IMG/VR virus record: IMGVR_UViG_3300021178_000018
Span: 1 to 47,371 of that record
Strand: one strand, 5' to 3'
DNA: 47,371 bases
From: a virus
Shown: piece by piece, positions 3,070-44,536 of the stretch
Layout: every line of letters begins with the position of its first letter
Numbering within the stretch: position 1 is the stretch's first letter
The notes under the pieces: model-generated
Seen by the model: the letters and a program-made list of their open reading frames with translations, nothing else
What the model was told of the DNA's origin: nothing
Databases searched by the model: none
Made by a program: the position numbers and the translations under genes

Positions 3070-3518
3070 ATCTCGATATTCGAAGAATCTGGCCCTCCGC
3101 TCAGGCCACGGTTGGCGCTCTTTATGTGGATGAAGAATCAGATTGCTACAGCCTTGAGCCTGGTTCGGAAGGAAAAGGCCCCATTCCCGCCGGCACCTAT
3201 GACGTCAAGCTATTGCCGTCAGCCCACTTCCAGGAATCCGAGGATCCCTGGGTGAAGCGCTACGCCTCTCAGATGCCCCACCTGCAGAACGTACCAGGAC
3301 GAACCCACATCATGATCCACTGGGGCGACGACCCGGAAGACACAGAAGGCTGCGTTTTGGTGGGCAATAGAAGGATGAGCGACTTCATGATCGGGGACAG
3401 CCGCAACGCCTTTGCGGCCCTATATATAAAGATCACGAATGCCTTCGCTCACGGGGAGCTGGTCTCCATCTCGATCTCCGATAACGGGCGGGCCGATGAG
3501 GTTTGGCCGAATTCCTAA
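3066..3518 (+). CDS. DUF5675 family protein (lysis-associated)
   Basis: A 150-residue protein overlapping the upstream gene by ATGA. Features of the DUF5675 family are clear: TVGALYVDEESDCYSLEP near the N-terminus, then PIPAGTYDVKL, then VPGRTHIMIHWGD and DTEGCVLVG. The conserved His, Asp and Cys in the IHWGD...TEGC stretch resemble an L,D-transpeptidase-like active site. The family occurs widely in phages and is usually placed with lysis genes, but its biochemical reaction is not established as far as I know. The length is normal for the family and it looks intact. It is the last gene before the terminator at 3781-3812. Confidence 0.75.
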   Translation: MNLDIRRIWPSAQATVGALYVDEESDCYSLEPGSEGKGPIPAGTYDVKLLPSAHFQESEDPWVKRYASQMPHLQNVPGRTHIMIHWGDDPEDTEGCVLVGNRRMSDFMIGDSRNAFAALYIKITNAFAHGELVSISISDNGRADEVWPNS

Positions 3519-3536
3519 CCGACGCTGTACGGACGC

Positions 3537-3683
3537 CTAATGCTTCCCGTGATTTCCATTCATCCACGTAGCCAGGAGTTTGGTGCTCTCGGCTACCGGG
3601 ATCTCCTCAACGCTAAAGGTTTCGCCGTCCCTGAGAATCCTATGCGCCGTCTCTTCGGCCTCTTTTCGGGTGTCGAAAGGCAC
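3537..3683 (-). CDS. Small hypothetical protein, start uncertain
   Basis: The minus-strand frame from 3752 down to the TAG at 3537-3539 is open for 71 codons. It reads like a real protein: KFHIRWTDGCSTKLDLVPF, then DTRKEAEETAHRIL, ending ATWMNGNHGKH. The only usual start is the GTG at 3683 (48 residues). The good sequence upstream of it begins right after an in-frame TAA, with ATC as first codon. Either the 5' end is damaged by a small indel near 3755, where ATG-GTA-TAA precedes it, or an unusual start is used. The function is unknown. Apart from this frame and the terminator, 3519-3810 shows no gene. Confidence 0.45.
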   Translation of the reverse strand: MPFDTRKEAEETAHRILRDGETFSVEEIPVAESTKLLATWMNGNHGKH

Positions 3684-3780
3684 TAGATCGAGCTTGGTGG
3701 AACAGCCGTCAGTCCACCGGATGTGAAACTTGTAAGGGTTTCGGATGTGGATTTATACCATATTTTCAGTAATGGTTAGT

Positions 3781-3812
3781 AGGTAACATTCCCTGCTTCT
3801 GTTACCTTTTTT
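3781..3812 (+). terminator. Rho-independent terminator
   Basis: Perfect 8-base stem AGGTAACA/TGTTACCT with an 11-base loop, followed on the plus strand by a run of T. It would end transcripts of the lysis cluster. The T run overlaps the TTG start proposed for the recombinase, so read-through or a separate leaderless promoter may express that gene. Confidence 0.75.
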
Positions 3813-13445: not shown

Positions 13446-14549
13446 ATGCCTAGCGATATAACCGACGCTCCCACACAGGACGCGATAGCCGAATCGCTTC
13501 TTGGACCCGAAGAACAGCCTGTTGAGCAACCCGTAGCCGAGCAACAGCCTGAGACTCCGGTTGAGGAGCAACCCGTTGAACAAGAGCAGCCACAAGAGCA
13601 GCCGGAAGCGGTCGAGAACTGGCTCCCTAGCGAGCAGGACAAGACGTTCTCCGAGGAAGCTCTGTCGCGCTACGCCCAGCGGTACGGCTTCGATGAGCAA
13701 AGCCTGACTAACCCACAGTTGCGGCAGCTTATCGTAGACAAGATCAACTCTGACATCTTCATTCATCAGCAGCAGCAACTAGAAGCGGAACAATTCGTCG
13801 AGCCCGAGCCCCAGCCGGAACCCACCCGGACACAGCCCGAGCTAACGAGAGAGCAGTATTTCCAGCAACTCGATCAACTGGTTTCACAGCGGACAGACCC
13901 CAATGTGGCCAAGGATTTCTATACCGGCTTCATGAAGGTCTTCGGCGTTCCCGATCAGGAAATCGCCAAGAACGCCGCACAGGCTGTGCCGTTCACGCAG
14001 TTGATGACCAAATACGCTCTCAACATGGTCAATTCGTTCCTGCCCGATTTCCTGCAGGCGCAACTGGCCACCCAGATCAGCCAAGCTTTTCCCGGCTTCG
14101 GTGAGATGTACGAACGAAGTTCCTACGCGATGGCCTGGGACCGCGTTCGCAATTCGAATCCCGTCTATGCGGACCTTCCCGCCTATGGCTCCAAGCAATT
14201 CAGCCAGCAGCTCAGGGAAGCGGCCGCCAAGATACCGGGGTTCGATGAGATGCAGTTCACCGACGGGCAAGGAAGACCTTTATCGCCCATGGAAAACTCC
14301 ACGCGCAAGTACGGAATGCTGGCGCAGGCGATCAAGGGGCAGATCACTCCCGAACTGTTAAATCAAGCTGTTGCTGCAAAGACGAAAAGTATACGGAGAG
14401 CCGAAGTCCGGCGATCCGCAGGCCAACTCGGCTCCGGGCAATCCACAAGAGCGTCAGGCGGTTCAGGCTCGGGAAGGTTCCAATCGAACTCCGATCTGTT
14501 CGACGAGGAGACGATGGAACGCTATCAGAACGAGCACGGACGGCTCTGA
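13446..14549 (+). CDS. Scaffolding-like protein
   Basis: A 367-residue acidic protein directly before the major capsid gene. The N-terminal part is a low-complexity Glu/Pro/Gln/Val region (residues about 20-60), followed by LPSEQDKTFSEEALSRYAQ and a second Gln/Pro region. A helical core includes YTGFMKVFGVPDQEI, and the Ser/Gly-rich C-terminus ends ETMERYQNEHGRL. Acidic, helical, low-complexity proteins in this position are typically scaffolds that guide procapsid assembly. A strong ribosome site (AAAGGAGAAGTAA) precedes the ATG. The assignment is by position and composition rather than by a recognised domain. Confidence 0.65.
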   Translation: MPSDITDAPTQDAIAESLLGPEEQPVEQPVAEQQPETPVEEQPVEQEQPQEQPEAVENWLPSEQDKTFSEEALSRYAQRYGFDEQSLTNPQLRQLIVDKINSDIFIHQQQQLEAEQFVEPEPQPEPTRTQPELTREQYFQQLDQLVSQRTDPNVAKDFYTGFMKVFGVPDQEIAKNAAQAVPFTQLMTKYALNMVNSFLPDFLQAQLATQISQAFPGFGEMYERSSYAMAWDRVRNSNPVYADLPAYGSKQFSQQLREAAAKIPGFDEMQFTDGQGRPLSPMENSTRKYGMLAQAIKGQITPELLNQAVAAKTKSIRRAEVRRSAGQLGSGQSTRASGGSGSGRFQSNSDLFDEETMERYQNEHGRL

Positions 14550-14567
14550 TTCTCATTTTAGGAGCCT

Positions 14568-15785
14568 ATGACACTTCAAGTCTCACGCAGTTTCGATCAG
14601 ATGGTCACGGACACGACCAACGTCCGCGACGTGTCCGAGCAGATGGTCTTGCTCGAACCCGATGCGGCTCCGCTGTTCGTTCTGACCAATGCGGCCAAGC
14701 GAAAGCAGCCGACGATTGGGCCCCGCTTCGAATGGGTGGAAGACACCGAAGTCAGTCTTTGGGGACAGTCCTCGGCAGCGGCCGATTGGTCAAGCGTGGC
14801 CACGTCAATTCTCGTGGTGGACGGAACTCTATTCGGGGTCGGCGATATCGTTGCCGTGCCCAAGATTCAGAGTTCCAACGCGGCCCCGGAAGTCTTTCTC
14901 GTGACCGCCATCTCCACCAACACCCTAACCATCACCCGCGCTATCGGAGGCTCCGGCGCCGACACCATCGGCATGACCGCCTCACTACGTATTCTCGCCA
15001 GCGCGTTCAAGGAAGACGACAACATCGGCCAACAGCGCTACACCTCGAAGACCGCCCAGATCAGCTATGCGCAGATCTTCAAGACGCCGGTCAAGGTGAC
15101 ACACACCGCGGCCTCAACCAAGCAGTACGGCGCTCCGCAAGGTGAACGAAAGTTTCAACTTGTGAAGGCGCTCATCCGTCACCGCTCGGAAATCGAAGCG
15201 GCCGGCCTGTGGTCCCGCGCTTCGGAGTCTCTGGCTCTGCCCTCTTCGCGCTGGACGACAATGGGCTGGCTGCCTCGCATCGCCACCAACAAAACCGATG
15301 CGGCCACAACCGCGACGATCACCACTTGGAACACATTCAGCGAGACTGCCTTCCGCTACGGCGAAAAGCAGAAACTACTGCTCTGCGCTCCCAAGGTGAT
15401 CTCGGCGCTCAACTTCTATTCGCAAAACAAGCTATTGACGCGAGTGGGAGATACCGTGTTCGGGGTCAAGATCGCCCGCTTCGAGATGGCTCTGGGGGAA
15501 TTCCTGCTGGCCAACGATTACCGCTTGGGGACCGGCGATATCGGCTATCCCGGCGGCAATACCTACAACTTCGCCACGCACGCCTACTCGATCGATCTGC
15601 CTTCAGTGGCGATTCGCTACCTGAACGGCGGGGGCGACAACCTCATCGGAGACACCAAGCTGTTCGAGAACGTGCTGCCTGACGGCTCGACAACTAGGAC
15701 CGACGAGTACCGCAGTCAATTAGGATGGGAGCATCGCCACGAGAAGAAGCACGCGTGGCTATTCGATTTGAGCGCCTATCAGTAG
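14568..15785 (+). CDS. Major capsid protein (SU10/DUF5309-like)
   Basis: A 405-residue protein with features of the DUF5309/SU10 major-head family: MVLLEPDAAPLFVLTNA near the start, RFEWVEDTEVSLWGQ, a beta-rich insert, and KTAQISYAQIFKTPVKVT. These are followed by RKFQLVKALIRHRSEIEAAG with WSRAS, and LLCAPKVISALNFY. The HK97-like fold is inferred from family knowledge. A good ribosome site (TTAGGAG) precedes the ATG. It is the last gene before a strong terminator, consistent with the high expression expected of a capsid gene. Confidence 0.85.
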   Translation: MTLQVSRSFDQMVTDTTNVRDVSEQMVLLEPDAAPLFVLTNAAKRKQPTIGPRFEWVEDTEVSLWGQSSAAADWSSVATSILVVDGTLFGVGDIVAVPKIQSSNAAPEVFLVTAISTNTLTITRAIGGSGADTIGMTASLRILASAFKEDDNIGQQRYTSKTAQISYAQIFKTPVKVTHTAASTKQYGAPQGERKFQLVKALIRHRSEIEAAGLWSRASESLALPSSRWTTMGWLPRIATNKTDAATTATITTWNTFSETAFRYGEKQKLLLCAPKVISALNFYSQNKLLTRVGDTVFGVKIARFEMALGEFLLANDYRLGTGDIGYPGGNTYNFATHAYSIDLPSVAIRYLNGGGDNLIGDTKLFENVLPDGSTTRTDEYRSQLGWEHRHEKKHAWLFDLSAYQ

Positions 15786-39143: not shown

Positions 39144-39383
39144 ATGGGCGAAGGCAAGAAGACGGAGCGAACCGACATGCCCAAGCAGTTGCGCACCGAT
39201 TCCGAGCTGGCCGAGGACATTCGTTTTATCGCCCGCATGAATCGCCGCCAGATCACGGAGCAAGTGTTGGTGTGGATCGAGGAAGGCGTAAAGGAAGATA
39301 AGCGCAGATTCAGTCAGGCCGCGTCAGGTGCAGAGCCCATCGCAGTCAGATCAAGTCAGGAAGCGTCAAGGAAAATGGCATGA
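39144..39383 (+). CDS. Second ribbon-helix-helix-like protein
   Basis: 79 residues from the ATG at 39144; ribosome site weak. TDMPKQLRTDSELAEDIRF and ARMNRRQITEQVLVWIEEG match the helix-helix part of the Arc-like fold, preceded by a possible strand; the tail is Ser/Ala-rich. It heads the string of tiny overlapping genes at 39380-41071. It could regulate those genes or antagonise the first repressor. Confidence 0.55.
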   Translation: MGEGKKTERTDMPKQLRTDSELAEDIRFIARMNRRQITEQVLVWIEEGVKEDKRRFSQAASGAEPIAVRSSQEASRKMA

Positions 39384-39586
39384 CCAGGAATTCCTACATA
39401 CACAAAACAGGTGAGGGCGCCTTGCTAGGGGGGCAGGGAAGGGCAAGCCGTGTAGACGGCCCTGCTCCTCTGGCACCAACCTCCATGCTCGCCACCTGGA
39501 ACCGCTGTTCCTGGCGCGAGAAGGTCTGGATCGTGGTCCTGGGGGCGCTGATTCTGGAGGGGCTGTTTGTGGTGATGGCGATATGA
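39380..39586 (+). CDS. Small membrane protein, copy 1
   Basis: Open from an ATG overlapping the upstream stop (ATGA), 68 residues. The conserved part, shared with 40338-40589, starts only at the ATWNRCSWREKV block, so the ATG at 39485 (33 residues) is an alternative start. The end is one membrane helix (VWIVVLGALILEGLFVVMA). First member of the duplicated string of genes; overlaps the next by ATGA. Confidence 0.55.
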   Translation: MTRNSYIHKTGEGALLGGQGRASRVDGPAPLAPTSMLATWNRCSWREKVWIVVLGALILEGLFVVMAI

Positions 39587-40129: not shown

Positions 40130-40341
40130 CCCACGTCCAGATACCCAAGAGGCCCCGAGGGTCGCCGCGGGCGACGAAGAGTTTCCCGACCGCCGGCGCT
40201 CTCACGAAATGCGCGACTCCTGGCTGTGGCCATCCCTGGAACAAGCATCACGGGGAATGTACGGTGTGGGTAGTCGATAAGCTCGATCGGGGCAAGAAAG
40301 GCCGTTTCTGCCGCTGCCAGCAGTTCCGTGAGGCGAAATGA
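40126..40341 (+). CDS. Small zinc-binding protein, copy 1
   Basis: 71 residues: a basic N-terminus (THVQIPKRPRGSPRATKSF), then CATPGCGHPWNKHHGEC and GRFCRCQQF. The Cys/His order C...CGH....H...C...C.C..F is shared with 7612-7794. Copy 2 (40994-41071) has lost this zinc part. Its stop overlaps the ATG of the next gene. Confidence 0.6.
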   Translation: MTHVQIPKRPRGSPRATKSFPTAGALTKCATPGCGHPWNKHHGECTVWVVDKLDRGKKGRFCRCQQFREAK

Positions 40342-40589
40342 TTTCTCTGCGCGATTGGGCCATCGGAATTTTACAGGCGCTTATGTTCTTTGCAATCGGC
40401 GAACAGCGCGTTGCCAATGAAAGCGAAAACGGCATGACCTCCTTACTCTGGGCCACCTGGAACCGCTGTTCCTGGCGCGAGAAGGTCTGGATCGTGGTCC
40501 TGGGGGCGCTCCCCTCGACATTGCTCGGGGACGGTGAGCGAAGTCGAACCGTGATCCTGGAGGGGCTGTTTGTGGTGATGGCGATATGA
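40338..40589 (+). CDS. Small membrane protein, copy 2 with in-frame REP insertion
   Basis: 83 residues from the ATG at 40338; the N-terminal part (SLRDWAIGILQALMFFAIG) is a separate hydrophobic helix absent from copy 1. From WATWNRCSWREKVWIVVLG it matches copy 1 almost exactly, then 14 extra residues (PSTLLGDGERSRTV) interrupt the membrane helix before ILEGLFVVMAI. The extra 42 bases are a REP-like element. The insertion keeps the frame and the overlaps with both neighbours. Confidence 0.6.
   Translation: MISLRDWAIGILQALMFFAIGEQRVANESENGMTSLLWATWNRCSWREKVWIVVLGALPSTLLGDGERSRTVILEGLFVVMAI
40511..40552. repeat. REP-like element inserted in frame
   Basis: Exactly 42 bases absent from the otherwise matching copy 1. 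Two hairpin modules: CCCC..CGGGG (40511-40530) and ACGGT..ACCGT (40531-40552), the second enclosing the reverse complement of the TTCGACTTCGCTC core found at 9541 and, diverged, at 1228. Confidence 0.75.
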
Positions 40590-40997: not shown

Positions 40998-41071
40998 CCC
41001 ACGTCCAGATACCCAAGAGGCCCCGAGGCATGAGGAAGCGATTCCCGGCTGCCGGCGCTCTCACTCTCTGA
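40994..41071 (+). pseudogene. Truncated zinc protein, copy 2
   Basis: The first 12 codons match 40126-40341 (THVQIPKRPRG), then an altered RKRFPAAGALTL and a TGA. The zinc site is lost. The DNA continues to match copy 1 up to the GGCGCTCTCAC stretch, after which sequences differ, which marks the end of the duplication. Confidence 0.6.
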
Positions 41072-41261
41072 AGTAATTCAGACCGAGAAAGGTATCGCTG
41101 TCAAGTTTGGGGAGCAGGATGCGACTTTTGAACTTGTGCCGGATGGCGATCATATGAGGCTAATTATTATTTGCCCGCCCGTGAAGTTAACGATTGGCGT
41201 GAACCGTGAAGAGGTTGCGGGGTTGGGGCGCTATCTCACGGAAACAGCGGAATCCAAGTAG
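41070..41261 (+). pseudogene. Headless fragment of a small gene
   Basis: An open frame reads EVIQTEKGIAVKFGEQDAT, then FELVPDGDHMRLIIICPP and ends GRYLTETAESK at the TAG 41259-41261. It looks like a genuine beta-rich protein but has no ATG, GTG or TTG in a sensible place; only a CTG at 41049 lies upstream. Its 5' end was probably lost at the duplication junction at about 41070. Confidence 0.5.
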
Positions 41262-41722
41262 CGACTTTCGAGGCGGGTAGGGAGCGGCAGCAGGGTATAG
41301 ATATAGCTCTGGGGACATTTCGAGCCTAGTGCATCCGACTATCCCTGACTGCTGCGACCGCCTCGGATTCATCTTCCCAGCGCTGCTAATCGGGGAAAGG
41401 TTAGCAGCTTCGGCCCATCAGCGGTTCGGGCAGCGGCTGAAAGTGGGGCTGGCCGTAGACGGTTCTGCTTTTGGCGATGATGGGTAACCGGGATGGCCCG
41501 GCGCGCACAGCCCCGATGCGAGAGGAGATCAGGCAAACCAGGGCGCGCCTGGGATGCGGGTGGAAGCCCCGCACAAGTTCAGAGCGCACGTACGGGCGCT
41601 GTGTGACAGAAGAATAGAGCGAGAGACTCCCGCATCACGCGGGACGATGAGGATTTGTGTCTGTGTGTGTGTGCGCGGCCGAATGGCTTCTGAAATGCAG
41701 TAACTATTGTTGAGAGGTGGTT
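41262..41722. ncRNA. Candidate large structured noncoding RNA
   Basis: About 380 bases without a gene contain a dense series of near-perfect helices. A long-range pair GAGGCGG/CCGCCTC (41270-41276 with 41358-41364) encloses GCAGCAG/CTGCTGC (41287-41293 with 41349-41355). Then come GCTGCTAA/TTAGCAGC (41382-41389 with 41401-41408), CCAGG/CCTGG (41538-41552), TGCGGG/CCCGCA (41555-41573), AGCGC/GCGCT (41583-41600) and TCCCGC/GCGGGA (41628-41644). A GT-rich stretch follows (41655-41682). It precedes an HNH gene. It could be an intron-like or omega-type RNA, or a new phage RNA; the family and strand are not recognised. Confidence 0.5.
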
Positions 41723-41779
41723 GTGACTAACTAACTCACCTTTCAATTTTGATTGATAGCTTGTGAGTGAGTTAGTTAC
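41723..41779. promoter_or_regulatory. Long inverted repeat in front of the HNH gene
   Basis: Seventeen-base arms at 41723-41739 and 41763-41779 (GTGACTAACTAACTCAC and GTGAGTGAGTTAGTTAC) pair at 15 of 17 positions around a 23-base AT-rich loop. The right arm ends 15 bases before the ATG at 41795. Built of ACTA/ACTC short repeats, it may be an operator or an RNA hairpin controlling the nuclease. Confidence 0.6.
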
Positions 41780-41794
41780 TTGGGCTTGCTGCGC

Positions 41795-42328
41795 ATGAAT
41801 TATTACCTATATCTCGAATCTGACGTCTGGCGACGACGCAGAGCGCGTTTTTTAAGGTGCCATTTCTTATGCCATAAGTGCGGCTGCGACTTGCGCCGTT
41901 GGATGGGGAATCGGTTGCCATCGCACGTCCATCATATCAGCTACGCCAATTTTGGACACGAGCCCGACACGGACCTAATGGCGCTCTGCGAGCCCTGTCA
42001 TTGGCTGATCGAGTCTGGCAAGGGAAATCAATTTTGGGTTCGAGGGGCAAATACAACACCCCTGAAGGCCACAAGCCTAGCTTCCGTCCTTGCAATCGTC
42101 ACCGAATCCATCCGACCGGAGCATCGGCTGGGAATGAACGTAGCCGAGGAGATTTATAAGCGCTGTGGACTCCCAGCCGATCACGACAGGCTTATACGGG
42201 CGATTCAAACCATCATTACCGAATCTGTGGAGCGGAAGGTCCGTTACCCCACGATTGTATTTATGAGGTTGCGGCAGCTACAGCGCCATGAATGGGCGCC
42301 AGATCCCAAGTCCGTTCAGGCGTGTTAG
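41795..42328 (+). CDS. HNH endonuclease with C-terminal accessory domain
   Basis: 177 residues from the ATG at 41795 (no clear ribosome site; TTG 41780 is an alternative). N-terminal HNH: LESDVWRRRRARFLR, CHKCGCDLR, HVHHISYANFGHEPDTD, LMALCEPCHWLIE, with two Cys pairs and the His-His core. The C-terminal domain (SLASVLAIVTESIRP, EEIYKRCGLPAD, RYPTIVFMRLRQLQ, EWAP) is shared with the separate gene 43368-43691. It overlaps the DNA methyltransferase region by a short gap. A nuclease beside a methyltransferase suggests a modification-dependent or protective pair. Confidence 0.75.
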   Translation: MNYYLYLESDVWRRRRARFLRCHFLCHKCGCDLRRWMGNRLPSHVHHISYANFGHEPDTDLMALCEPCHWLIESGKGNQFWVRGANTTPLKATSLASVLAIVTESIRPEHRLGMNVAEEIYKRCGLPADHDRLIRAIQTIITESVERKVRYPTIVFMRLRQLQRHEWAPDPKSVQAC

Positions 42329-42354: not shown

Positions 42355-43371
42355 ATGAAGCCTTACTACAGCGAGGACGGCATCACCATCTACCACGGAG
42401 ATTGCAGGGACATTTTGCTTTACCTGCCGCCGCGCACTCTTCATTGCTGCGTGACGTCGCCGCCATATTGGGGCTTGCGGTTTTACGAGGGCGCCTCAGA
42501 CCTCGGCCTCGAATCCAGCCCACAAGAGTACATCTCGAGAATGTCTTGGATTTTCAGGCAGGTCTATCGCTCCCTGGTCGACGGCTCAACTCTCTGGCTG
42601 AACCTTGGCGATAGCTACGGCTCTGGAACGCACGCCTTTCGGCCGCCAAGCAAATGCTCGGCAGTTGGTGGATGGCGGTCGACGGCTAATCAGCTAAACC
42701 GTAATGGCTATCCGGCGAAGCAGTTGGTAGGAGTGCCGTGGCGTCTCGCTTTTGCGCTGCAGGAGCGAGGCTGGTTTCTGCGTCAAGACATCATCTGGGC
42801 AAAGCCTAACCCGATGCCTGAGTCTGTTACCGATCGCTGCACGAAAGCCCATGAATACATTTTCCTGTTGGCTAAGGGGCGCAAGTATTTCTACGACCAA
42901 GAAGCCATTCTTGAGCCGGTAAGCCCGAATACCCACATGCGCCTTAGCCAAAACCTAGCTGCACAGATCGGCAGCTACCGGGCTAATGGCGGCGGAAAAA
43001 CCAATGGGCCGATGAAGGCAGTAGGGCGCAAGGCAAAAAACGGCGCCGTCGGAGTCGAGAAGCACAATGCCAGCTTTGACGCATCGGTTTGTATGCCAGT
43101 TGTCGAACGGAACAAACGATCCGTCTGGACGATTGGGACAGGCGAAGGGTTGGAGATGCACACGGCCACGTTCCCGGAAGAGTTAGTCAAGCCGTGCGTT
43201 TTGGCTGGCTGTCCCGTCGACGGCGCCGTTTTGGATCCATTCTGCGGAACGGGCACAACCCTCAAAGTGGCTAAGGAACTCGGCCGTCGCGCAGTAGGCA
43301 TCGAGATCGAGGAAAAGTATTGCGAGATCGCTGCCAAGAGACTGGGGCAGAAAGTGCTGGAGTTTACATGA
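42355..43371 (+). CDS. DNA methyltransferase (beta class, TSPPYW)
   Basis: 338 residues from the ATG at 42355 (GAGGGG before it). Catalytic motif IV is VTSPPYWGLRFY near the N-terminus, target region in the middle (PYPAKQLVGVPWRLAFALQ-like block), and the SAM motif I VLDPFCGTGTTLKVAKELG lies near the C-terminus, the beta order of N4-cytosine or N6-adenine enzymes. TSPPYW is common in both. It would protect phage DNA from host restriction or mark it for the neighbouring HNH enzyme. It overlaps the accessory gene 43368 by ATGA. Confidence 0.85.
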   Translation: MKPYYSEDGITIYHGDCRDILLYLPPRTLHCCVTSPPYWGLRFYEGASDLGLESSPQEYISRMSWIFRQVYRSLVDGSTLWLNLGDSYGSGTHAFRPPSKCSAVGGWRSTANQLNRNGYPAKQLVGVPWRLAFALQERGWFLRQDIIWAKPNPMPESVTDRCTKAHEYIFLLAKGRKYFYDQEAILEPVSPNTHMRLSQNLAAQIGSYRANGGGKTNGPMKAVGRKAKNGAVGVEKHNASFDASVCMPVVERNKRSVWTIGTGEGLEMHTATFPEELVKPCVLAGCPVDGAVLDPFCGTGTTLKVAKELGRRAVGIEIEEKYCEIAAKRLGQKVLEFT

Positions 43372-43691
43372 GCCTCCAATCCATTCTCGAGATCTTCACC
43401 GAGCTTCTCACCGACGAGGAGCGCAATTGGTTTCCGTTTGGCAACGAGGTCTACAAGTGCTGCGGCTCGCCGAGTGAAAGGCAGCAAATCGCTCAAGCCC
43501 TCGAAACCATGATGGCCGAATCCATCCGGCGCAAGAAACGCTACCCGCGGATCATCTTCAAGCGCCTGAAGCAGCTTCAGAAAGGCGAATGGGCTCCCGC
43601 AGTTCAACTCCAGCCACGGCCAGAACCTCAGATGAACCCCGCAGCCGTAGAGCGCTACTGGGAGCGGAGAAGGAAGAGGGTGGCAGGGTGA
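43368..43691 (+). CDS. Stand-alone accessory domain (paralogue of HNH C-terminus)
   Basis: 107 residues overlapping the methyltransferase stop. SLQSILEIFTELLTD, NEVYKCCGSPSERQQ, SIRRKKRYPRIIFKRLKQL, EWAP aligns with the C-terminal half of the HNH protein at 41795-42328. The C-terminus is basic (RYWERRRKRVAG). Both copies have the same order of conserved Tyr-Lys-x-Cys-Gly and Arg-Tyr-Pro-x-Ile. It may be a DNA- or partner-binding module. The GTG of the next gene overlaps its stop. Confidence 0.7.
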   Translation: MSLQSILEIFTELLTDEERNWFPFGNEVYKCCGSPSERQQIAQALETMMAESIRRKKRYPRIIFKRLKQLQKGEWAPAVQLQPRPEPQMNPAAVERYWERRRKRVAG

Positions 43692-44536
43692 AGCTGGCGC
43701 GAGTATTTCCGAGACGTACCAAGGCTACTCCTAATGATGAAATGGCCTTTTTCGGGGCGCCCGATATGTTTGTCCAGGCCGACGAGGTCCACATCGATGT
43801 CACTTTCACGGCAGACAAGCCAAAAGCGGAGCGTTTAGCGGAGGAATGGCAGCGGATCGCTCCAGTAAAAGTTGGCGGCGTCGCTTATGGCGATCCGGGT
43901 CAAGAATTCGTTCCGGGGCGCTACGTCAAAGAAGGCTACACCTTCACCTCGCGCGGCTGTCCCGAACGATGCTGGTACTGCTCAGTGTGGAAGCGAGACC
44001 CGGCGATTCGGCTCCTACCGATTCAAGATGGCTGGAATATCCTCGATGACAACTTACTCGCTTGCCCTGAGGCCCATTTCCGCTCCGTGATTGCCATGCT
44101 GTCTAGGCAAAGGCGCCGCGTTGAGTTCACTGGCGGATTGCAGGCGTCACGATTGCAGGACTGGCATGTGGAGCTTTTTGCGAGCCTCACACCGCGACCA
44201 GTATTCTTTTTTGCTTACGATGACCCAGACAAATGCAAGAAAAGTTCTTTCGACGGGATGCGAGTCGCCGCCGAGAAAATGCTTGCCGCCGGATTCACTC
44301 GCGCCGCCCATAATCTACGCACGTTCGTTTTCATCGGCTTCCCACAAGACACTTTCGACAAGGCCGAGGCGCGATTGCGCGAAATGCTGGATATCGGCTT
44401 CACGCCTTACGCGATGCTTTGGCAACCTGAGACGCCAAGCGCAGAGAAATACAGGCCAGCGCCAGAATGGAAGCGCTTTCAAAGATCATGGGCAAGGCCG
44501 GCAGCGATTCACGCTGTTAACAGAGTGCCAGCATGA
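43688..44536 (+). CDS. Radical SAM protein
   Basis: 282 residues from the GTG at 43688. The iron-sulphur motif is FTSRGCPERCWYCSVW (Cys-x3-Cys-x2-Cys, about residues 94-101), followed by DDNLLACPEAHFRSVIAML, EFTGGLQASRL and HNLRTFVFIGFPQDT, the usual barrel segments. The N-terminal part carries GAPDMFVQADEVHIDVTF. Radical SAM enzymes in phages may modify nucleotides, RNA or proteins; the substrate is not evident. It is coupled to the methyltransferase cassette by overlapping starts and stops. Confidence 0.8.
   Translation: MKLARVFPRRTKATPNDEMAFFGAPDMFVQADEVHIDVTFTADKPKAERLAEEWQRIAPVKVGGVAYGDPGQEFVPGRYVKEGYTFTSRGCPERCWYCSVWKRDPAIRLLPIQDGWNILDDNLLACPEAHFRSVIAMLSRQRRRVEFTGGLQASRLQDWHVELFASLTPRPVFFFAYDDPDKCKKSSFDGMRVAAEKMLAAGFTRAAHNLRTFVFIGFPQDTFDKAEARLREMLDIGFTPYAMLWQPETPSAEKYRPAPEWKRFQRSWARPAAIHAVNRVPA

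Follow-up and report, generated by a model that had tools for sequence, protein, structure and literature searches.

In T4-like phages, RNA structures lie upstream of several homing-endonuclease genes (I-TevI, segB, mobE and seg43; PMC2988022); one of the hairpins described there sits just upstream of the ribosome-binding site, which it does not cover. GOLLD and ROOL are large folded non-coding phage RNAs of unknown function, often located near tRNA islands (PMC12286853). HEARO ORFs carry RuvC and HNH domains (PMC9755519).

The window (the whole stretch of DNA analysed here) is a virus record of 47,371 bases, from a soil phage. Towards its right end is a gene-free stretch, 41262-41780, which is G+C-rich and then A+T-rich and is predicted to form a structured RNA on the + strand. 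It is followed by a small HNH gene and a DNA methyltransferase gene. The favoured reading, to which we give a probability of roughly one in three, is that 41262-41780 is a structured + strand leader of this gene pair, or an RNA processed from such a leader. An independent orphan RNA or functionless gap DNA is nearly as likely.

The locus resembles the hairpin-controlled endonuclease genes of T4-like phages (PMC2988022) in having a small phage endonuclease gene with a stable hairpin just upstream; a hairpin is indeed found at the start of the endonuclease gene (41723-41779, z -7.0). Unlike the T4-like cases, no ribosome-binding site is seen in the hairpin, there is no known late promoter, and the hairpin comes after about 460 nt of additional predicted folded RNA. 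With GOLLD and ROOL the stretch would share the character of a large, folded, phage-encoded non-coding RNA; however, those RNAs have many members, covariation and nearby tRNA genes, none of which is seen here, and their Rfam models find no match in the window. HEARO (omega RNA), the partner of IscB or IsrB, is likewise a structured RNA beside an HNH-domain ORF, but the neighbouring HNH protein here has 175 aa and Rfam holds no match to the predicted RNA. The covariance models for HEARO and for group I and group II introns do not match the stretch. A first, sequence-only reading could not place it among omega RNAs, introns or giant phage RNAs, which holds as far as the Rfam models go.

The gap measures about 520-540 nt, from the end of a small + strand ORF (41070-41261; no relatives in an IMG/VR protein query) to the HNH ORF (ATG at 41801). 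Only three stretches of at least 150 nt in the window lack an 80-codon open frame in all six frames (1-179, 3516-3786 and 41078-41770), and the last is by far the longest. Neither translation in six frames nor a codon-usage score, for which 14 genes of the window served as training set, gives a coding signal on either strand of the gap, and no hidden protein gene is seen. The sequence-only reading had held that 41262-41644 codes for nothing and had named a hidden gene as the finding that would overturn it; the six frames contain no coding frame, and the non-coding assignment stands. Its extent does not, as the gap reaches 41780. The + frame at 41420-41487 slightly resembles what we take to be the start of a universal-stress-protein motif; it was rejected on a codon score below zero and its position within hairpins. 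The gap has no tandem repeats. Between 40900 and 42400, no + strand promoter-like site of the sigma-70 type (the only type scanned) was found, and terminator-like sites occur at chance level only.

The + strand of 41262-41644 folds at -173.1 kcal/mol (minimum free energy; z -3.0), and none of 100 dinucleotide shuffles is as good. For the whole gap, 41262-41780, the corresponding values are -222.7 kcal/mol, z -4.9 and again 0/100. On the - strand 41262-41644 has a z of only -1.3, and 11 of 100 shuffles fold at least as well. By shuffle z, 41262-41644 ranks first of 124 windows, each 383 nt long and on the + strand (41262-41644 itself and 123 from a fixed grid along the phage), a rank which is partly due to selection, since the stretch was picked for looking folded. 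By composition-corrected energy it ranks fourth of 496 windows covering both strands. In three related phages, for which 256 of 359 windows were scored, six of the 256 match or exceed it on the same scale (-3.33 or below; lowest -5.0), and its stability is therefore not special. By position, one phage has two of the four strongest of these windows within its major capsid gene; the others lie in the gene preceding the major capsid gene in the other two phages, where that gene occupies the scaffold position. Strong folding is not rare in coding DNA of the related phages. The earlier claim of a large structured non-coding RNA thus survives as to its folded and non-coding character; the large RNA itself remains a candidate, with coding windows of matching energy, no homologue in the collections searched, and no + strand promoter or terminator above chance at the edges. 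As it stands, fold energy alone cannot tell such gaps from the coding DNA of phages in the same group.

Unusually stable + strand folds are also found at 13446-15782, in the capsid gene and the gene preceding it, here and in the three related phages. These may possibly be mRNA structure in highly expressed genes.

The 383-nt fold contains at least seven helices, as had been proposed. Two of the pairings do not persist: the outer helix 41267-41276/41359-41368 and the arm 41412-41419/41476-41483 re-pair with flanking sequence once 200 nt upstream and 340 nt downstream are added. Mean pairing probabilities of about 0.7 or more are then retained at 41284-41355, 41382-41408, 41440-41471, 41488-41501, 41504-41605 (base only), 41555-41573, 41628-41644 and 41723-41779. 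The first of these is a long imperfect hairpin with 7+5+4 outer pairs and an inner stem at 41309-41329 (probability about 1.0 with flanks); the second is a 10-pair hairpin with a 7-nt loop (probability 1.0 with flanks). By count in the sequence, seven of the 16 pairs of a hairpin at 41436-41475 are G-U; this hairpin forms in + strand RNA only and is lost on the - strand (z +0.85). The G-U pairs and the - strand loss favour RNA over a DNA palindrome. A 5-pair tetraloop hairpin follows at 41488-41501 (14 of 200 shuffles equally stable), then a branched arm at 41504-41605 with eight closing pairs and uncertain inner pairing, and a 6-pair hairpin at 41628-41644. The last hairpin, 41723-41779, is 57 nt long and A+T-rich (-22.9 kcal/mol; 0/200 shuffles as stable). 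It is a near-palindrome which also folds on the - strand (z -5.6); 21 nt separate its end from the HNH ATG, and no T run follows it. The hairpins within 41380-41410, 41435-41476 and 41723-41779 are each better than 200 of 200 shuffles.

The HNH gene (41801-42328, + strand) encodes 175 aa from ATG 41801; TTG 41780 is also a possible start. Its product matches HNH endonucleases weakly in PHROGs (phrog_144, E 3.5e-08), where its other matches are one small-terminase family, two unknown families and otherwise HNH-type families. Pfam gives no family for it at E 0.1, and neither Pfam nor PHROGs shows a RuvC part. The sequence-only reading was therefore correct that an HNH gene follows and that it is too small for IscB. 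By eye, no ribosome-binding site is seen before ATG 41801, nor is one recognisable inside the hairpin 41723-41779. The next gene (42355-43371, + strand) encodes an N6/N4 DNA methyltransferase (E 3.1e-48). Beyond the methyltransferase gene, a separate ORF at 43371-43691 is paralogous to the C-terminal part of the HNH protein (46% over 76 residues); this looks like fusion or fission of a small domain. Further on, 43589-44536 encodes a radical-SAM-like protein (phrog_9298, E 3.4e-14), here carried by a phage.

Relatives of the HNH protein are scarce. A pattern scan of IMG/VR gave one locus (L002, 106 aa), a protein query of GTDB genomes none, and a query of 396 Acidobacteriota genomes one weak match. 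In L002 the HNH gene begins about 40 nt after another gene, with no comparable gap upstream; the RNA is therefore not a general partner of the HNH protein.

The stretch itself has no relative among phages, plasmids, IMG/VR and the 396 Acidobacteriota genomes by blastn, pattern scans or covariance models. The Rfam covariance search, which had been suggested as a check, brings no family up to its gathering score anywhere in the window, and at E up to 5 over 41000-42000 it gives one chance miRNA match only. Matches by blastn span 23-33 nt in phages (10 records) and 26-35 nt in plasmids (5 records); 16 records chosen for a related gene (portal, methylase or HNH) yield one 17-nt match. At E 0.1, 87 of the 396 Acidobacteriota genomes have a blastn match, all of them short, and the 20 best loci each carry one lone piece of 20-48 nt. 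DNA pattern scans of IMG/VR returned 141 stretches, none of which was confirmed; another pattern gave none, and further scans gave 12 loci with no match past 38 nt and six loci with 17-27 nt. Two covariance models, R1 (41482-41646) and R2 (41282-41475), were built from the single sequence; such models are weak, and distant relatives could escape them. They recover the window itself at 209.8 and 248.4 bits, and no other sequence above chance. The best foreign hits of R1 in 99 sources and the 396 genomes are at E 5.8 (loci) and E 0.027 (one genome). R2 reaches E 1.3 at best in 99 + 28 sources, and has no hit at E 0.1 in the 396 genomes. A lack of homologues with compensatory changes had been named as the refuting outcome; the collections searched gave no homologue, which neither proves nor refutes the RNA claim. 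Nothing found in the literature appears to describe the stretch. As a sequence it is new, having no neighbours in any collection searched, but none of the tests reveals a new kind of RNA.

The capsid, portal and terminase-region proteins of the virus match other IMG/VR phages, and the portal protein has relatives at 14 distinct IMG/VR loci. The major capsid protein has an 88% match on a contig (JAFAPG010000045.1) of an Acidobacteriota MAG, and for this reason an acidobacterium is the probable host. The contig is a prophage, or a phage contig binned with its host. The right arm, which holds the stretch, is mostly absent from phages with capsid and portal proteins 70-90% identical. Just upstream of the stretch, 39380-39586 and 40338-40589 are two copies of a small ORF with end pieces 97-100% identical; the second has an extra in-frame insertion of 42 nt at about 40510-40551, with an inverted repeat (gctcgggga...gtgagcgaagtcgaac), of which an exact 21-base piece is not present in 99 Acidobacteriota genomes. 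Further duplicated pairs are 39869-39966/40806-40903 (92% identical) and 40124-40160/40992-41028 (100% identical). Between 39.4 and 41.1 kb, the arm thus has the appearance of a tandem duplication which diverged later.

In the favoured reading, 41262-41780 would be an untranslated + strand RNA between co-directional genes, in a variable arm of a phage of Acidobacteriota. Its transcript would form successive hairpins. The last of them, 41723-41779, directly before the HNH start, would limit HNH translation, in the way that hairpins restrain some homing-endonuclease genes in T4-like phages. The leader is favoured by the lack of coding signal in the longest frame-free stretch, flanked by + strand genes; by the difference between strands (z -3.0 and -4.9 on the + strand against -1.3 on the - strand); by the G-U-dependent hairpin 41436-41475 and the z of -7.0 at 41723-41779; and by the precedent in T4-like phages (PMC2988022). 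Several points argue against a leader. With no relative there is neither covariation nor a conserved association with an HNH gene; L002 has no such stretch, and related phages have coding windows with folds of equal strength. The hairpin 41723-41779 covers no recognisable ribosome-binding site, and a structured leader of 460 nt exceeds the needs of such control.

The stretch may instead be gene-poor filler, that is, recombination-prone DNA of the variable arm which has lost its gene or genes, its fold being a functionless by-product of G+C-richness. This is a tentative but serious possibility: the arm is not common to phages with similar capsid and portal proteins, duplicated gene pieces lie just upstream, six of 256 windows of the three relatives fold as strongly, and there are no relatives, no covariation, and no promoter or terminator above chance. 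However, filler sits poorly with the longest gap of an otherwise packed genome, the first rank among 124 windows by shuffle z, the strand-specific signal, and several separate hairpins each beyond 200 shuffles.

Rather unlikely is a free-standing structured RNA of the phage which belongs to an undescribed class and acts in trans, as may be the case for GOLLD or ROOL. The length of about 380 nt, the many helices, the absence of coding and of an Rfam family, and the strand-specific folding all agree with it, but the collections searched contain no second member, the window has no tRNA genes, no + strand promoter-like site is seen and two helices are unstable with flanks. Little credence is given to an undescribed class with a length of about 380-500 nt, perhaps acting together with the HNH protein, in a lineage too sparsely sampled to show relatives.

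Phage origins and similar sites are often found in long gaps. A DNA element of inverted repeats (a replication origin, or a packaging or recombination site) would suit the position in this one, and the near-palindrome 41723-41779 can fold on either strand (z -7.0 and -5.6); but for the main part good folding is confined to one strand, the 16-pair hairpin needs seven G-U pairs, mismatched in DNA, and tandem repeats are lacking there, making such an element improbable. A guide RNA of an IscB/IsrB-like HNH nuclease, or an intron core with its endonuclease, has the adjoining HNH gene in its favour and is very improbable, as the Rfam library (which presumably includes the HEARO and intron families) gives only the chance miRNA to E 5 over 41000-42000, the 175-aa protein has no RuvC in Pfam or PHROGs, and no gene is split, the upstream ORF stopping at 41261 and the HNH ORF being complete. 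Pieces near 41577 and 41300 which by eye are like the R and S elements of group I introns, respectively, are in reversed order, pair without the bulge and have no Rfam match; they were set aside as chance.

If the stretch is transcribed and functional, it would be a phage RNA without known relatives, from a poorly sampled host phylum. Alternatively, on the same condition, it would place hairpin control of an HNH gene beyond the T4-like phages.
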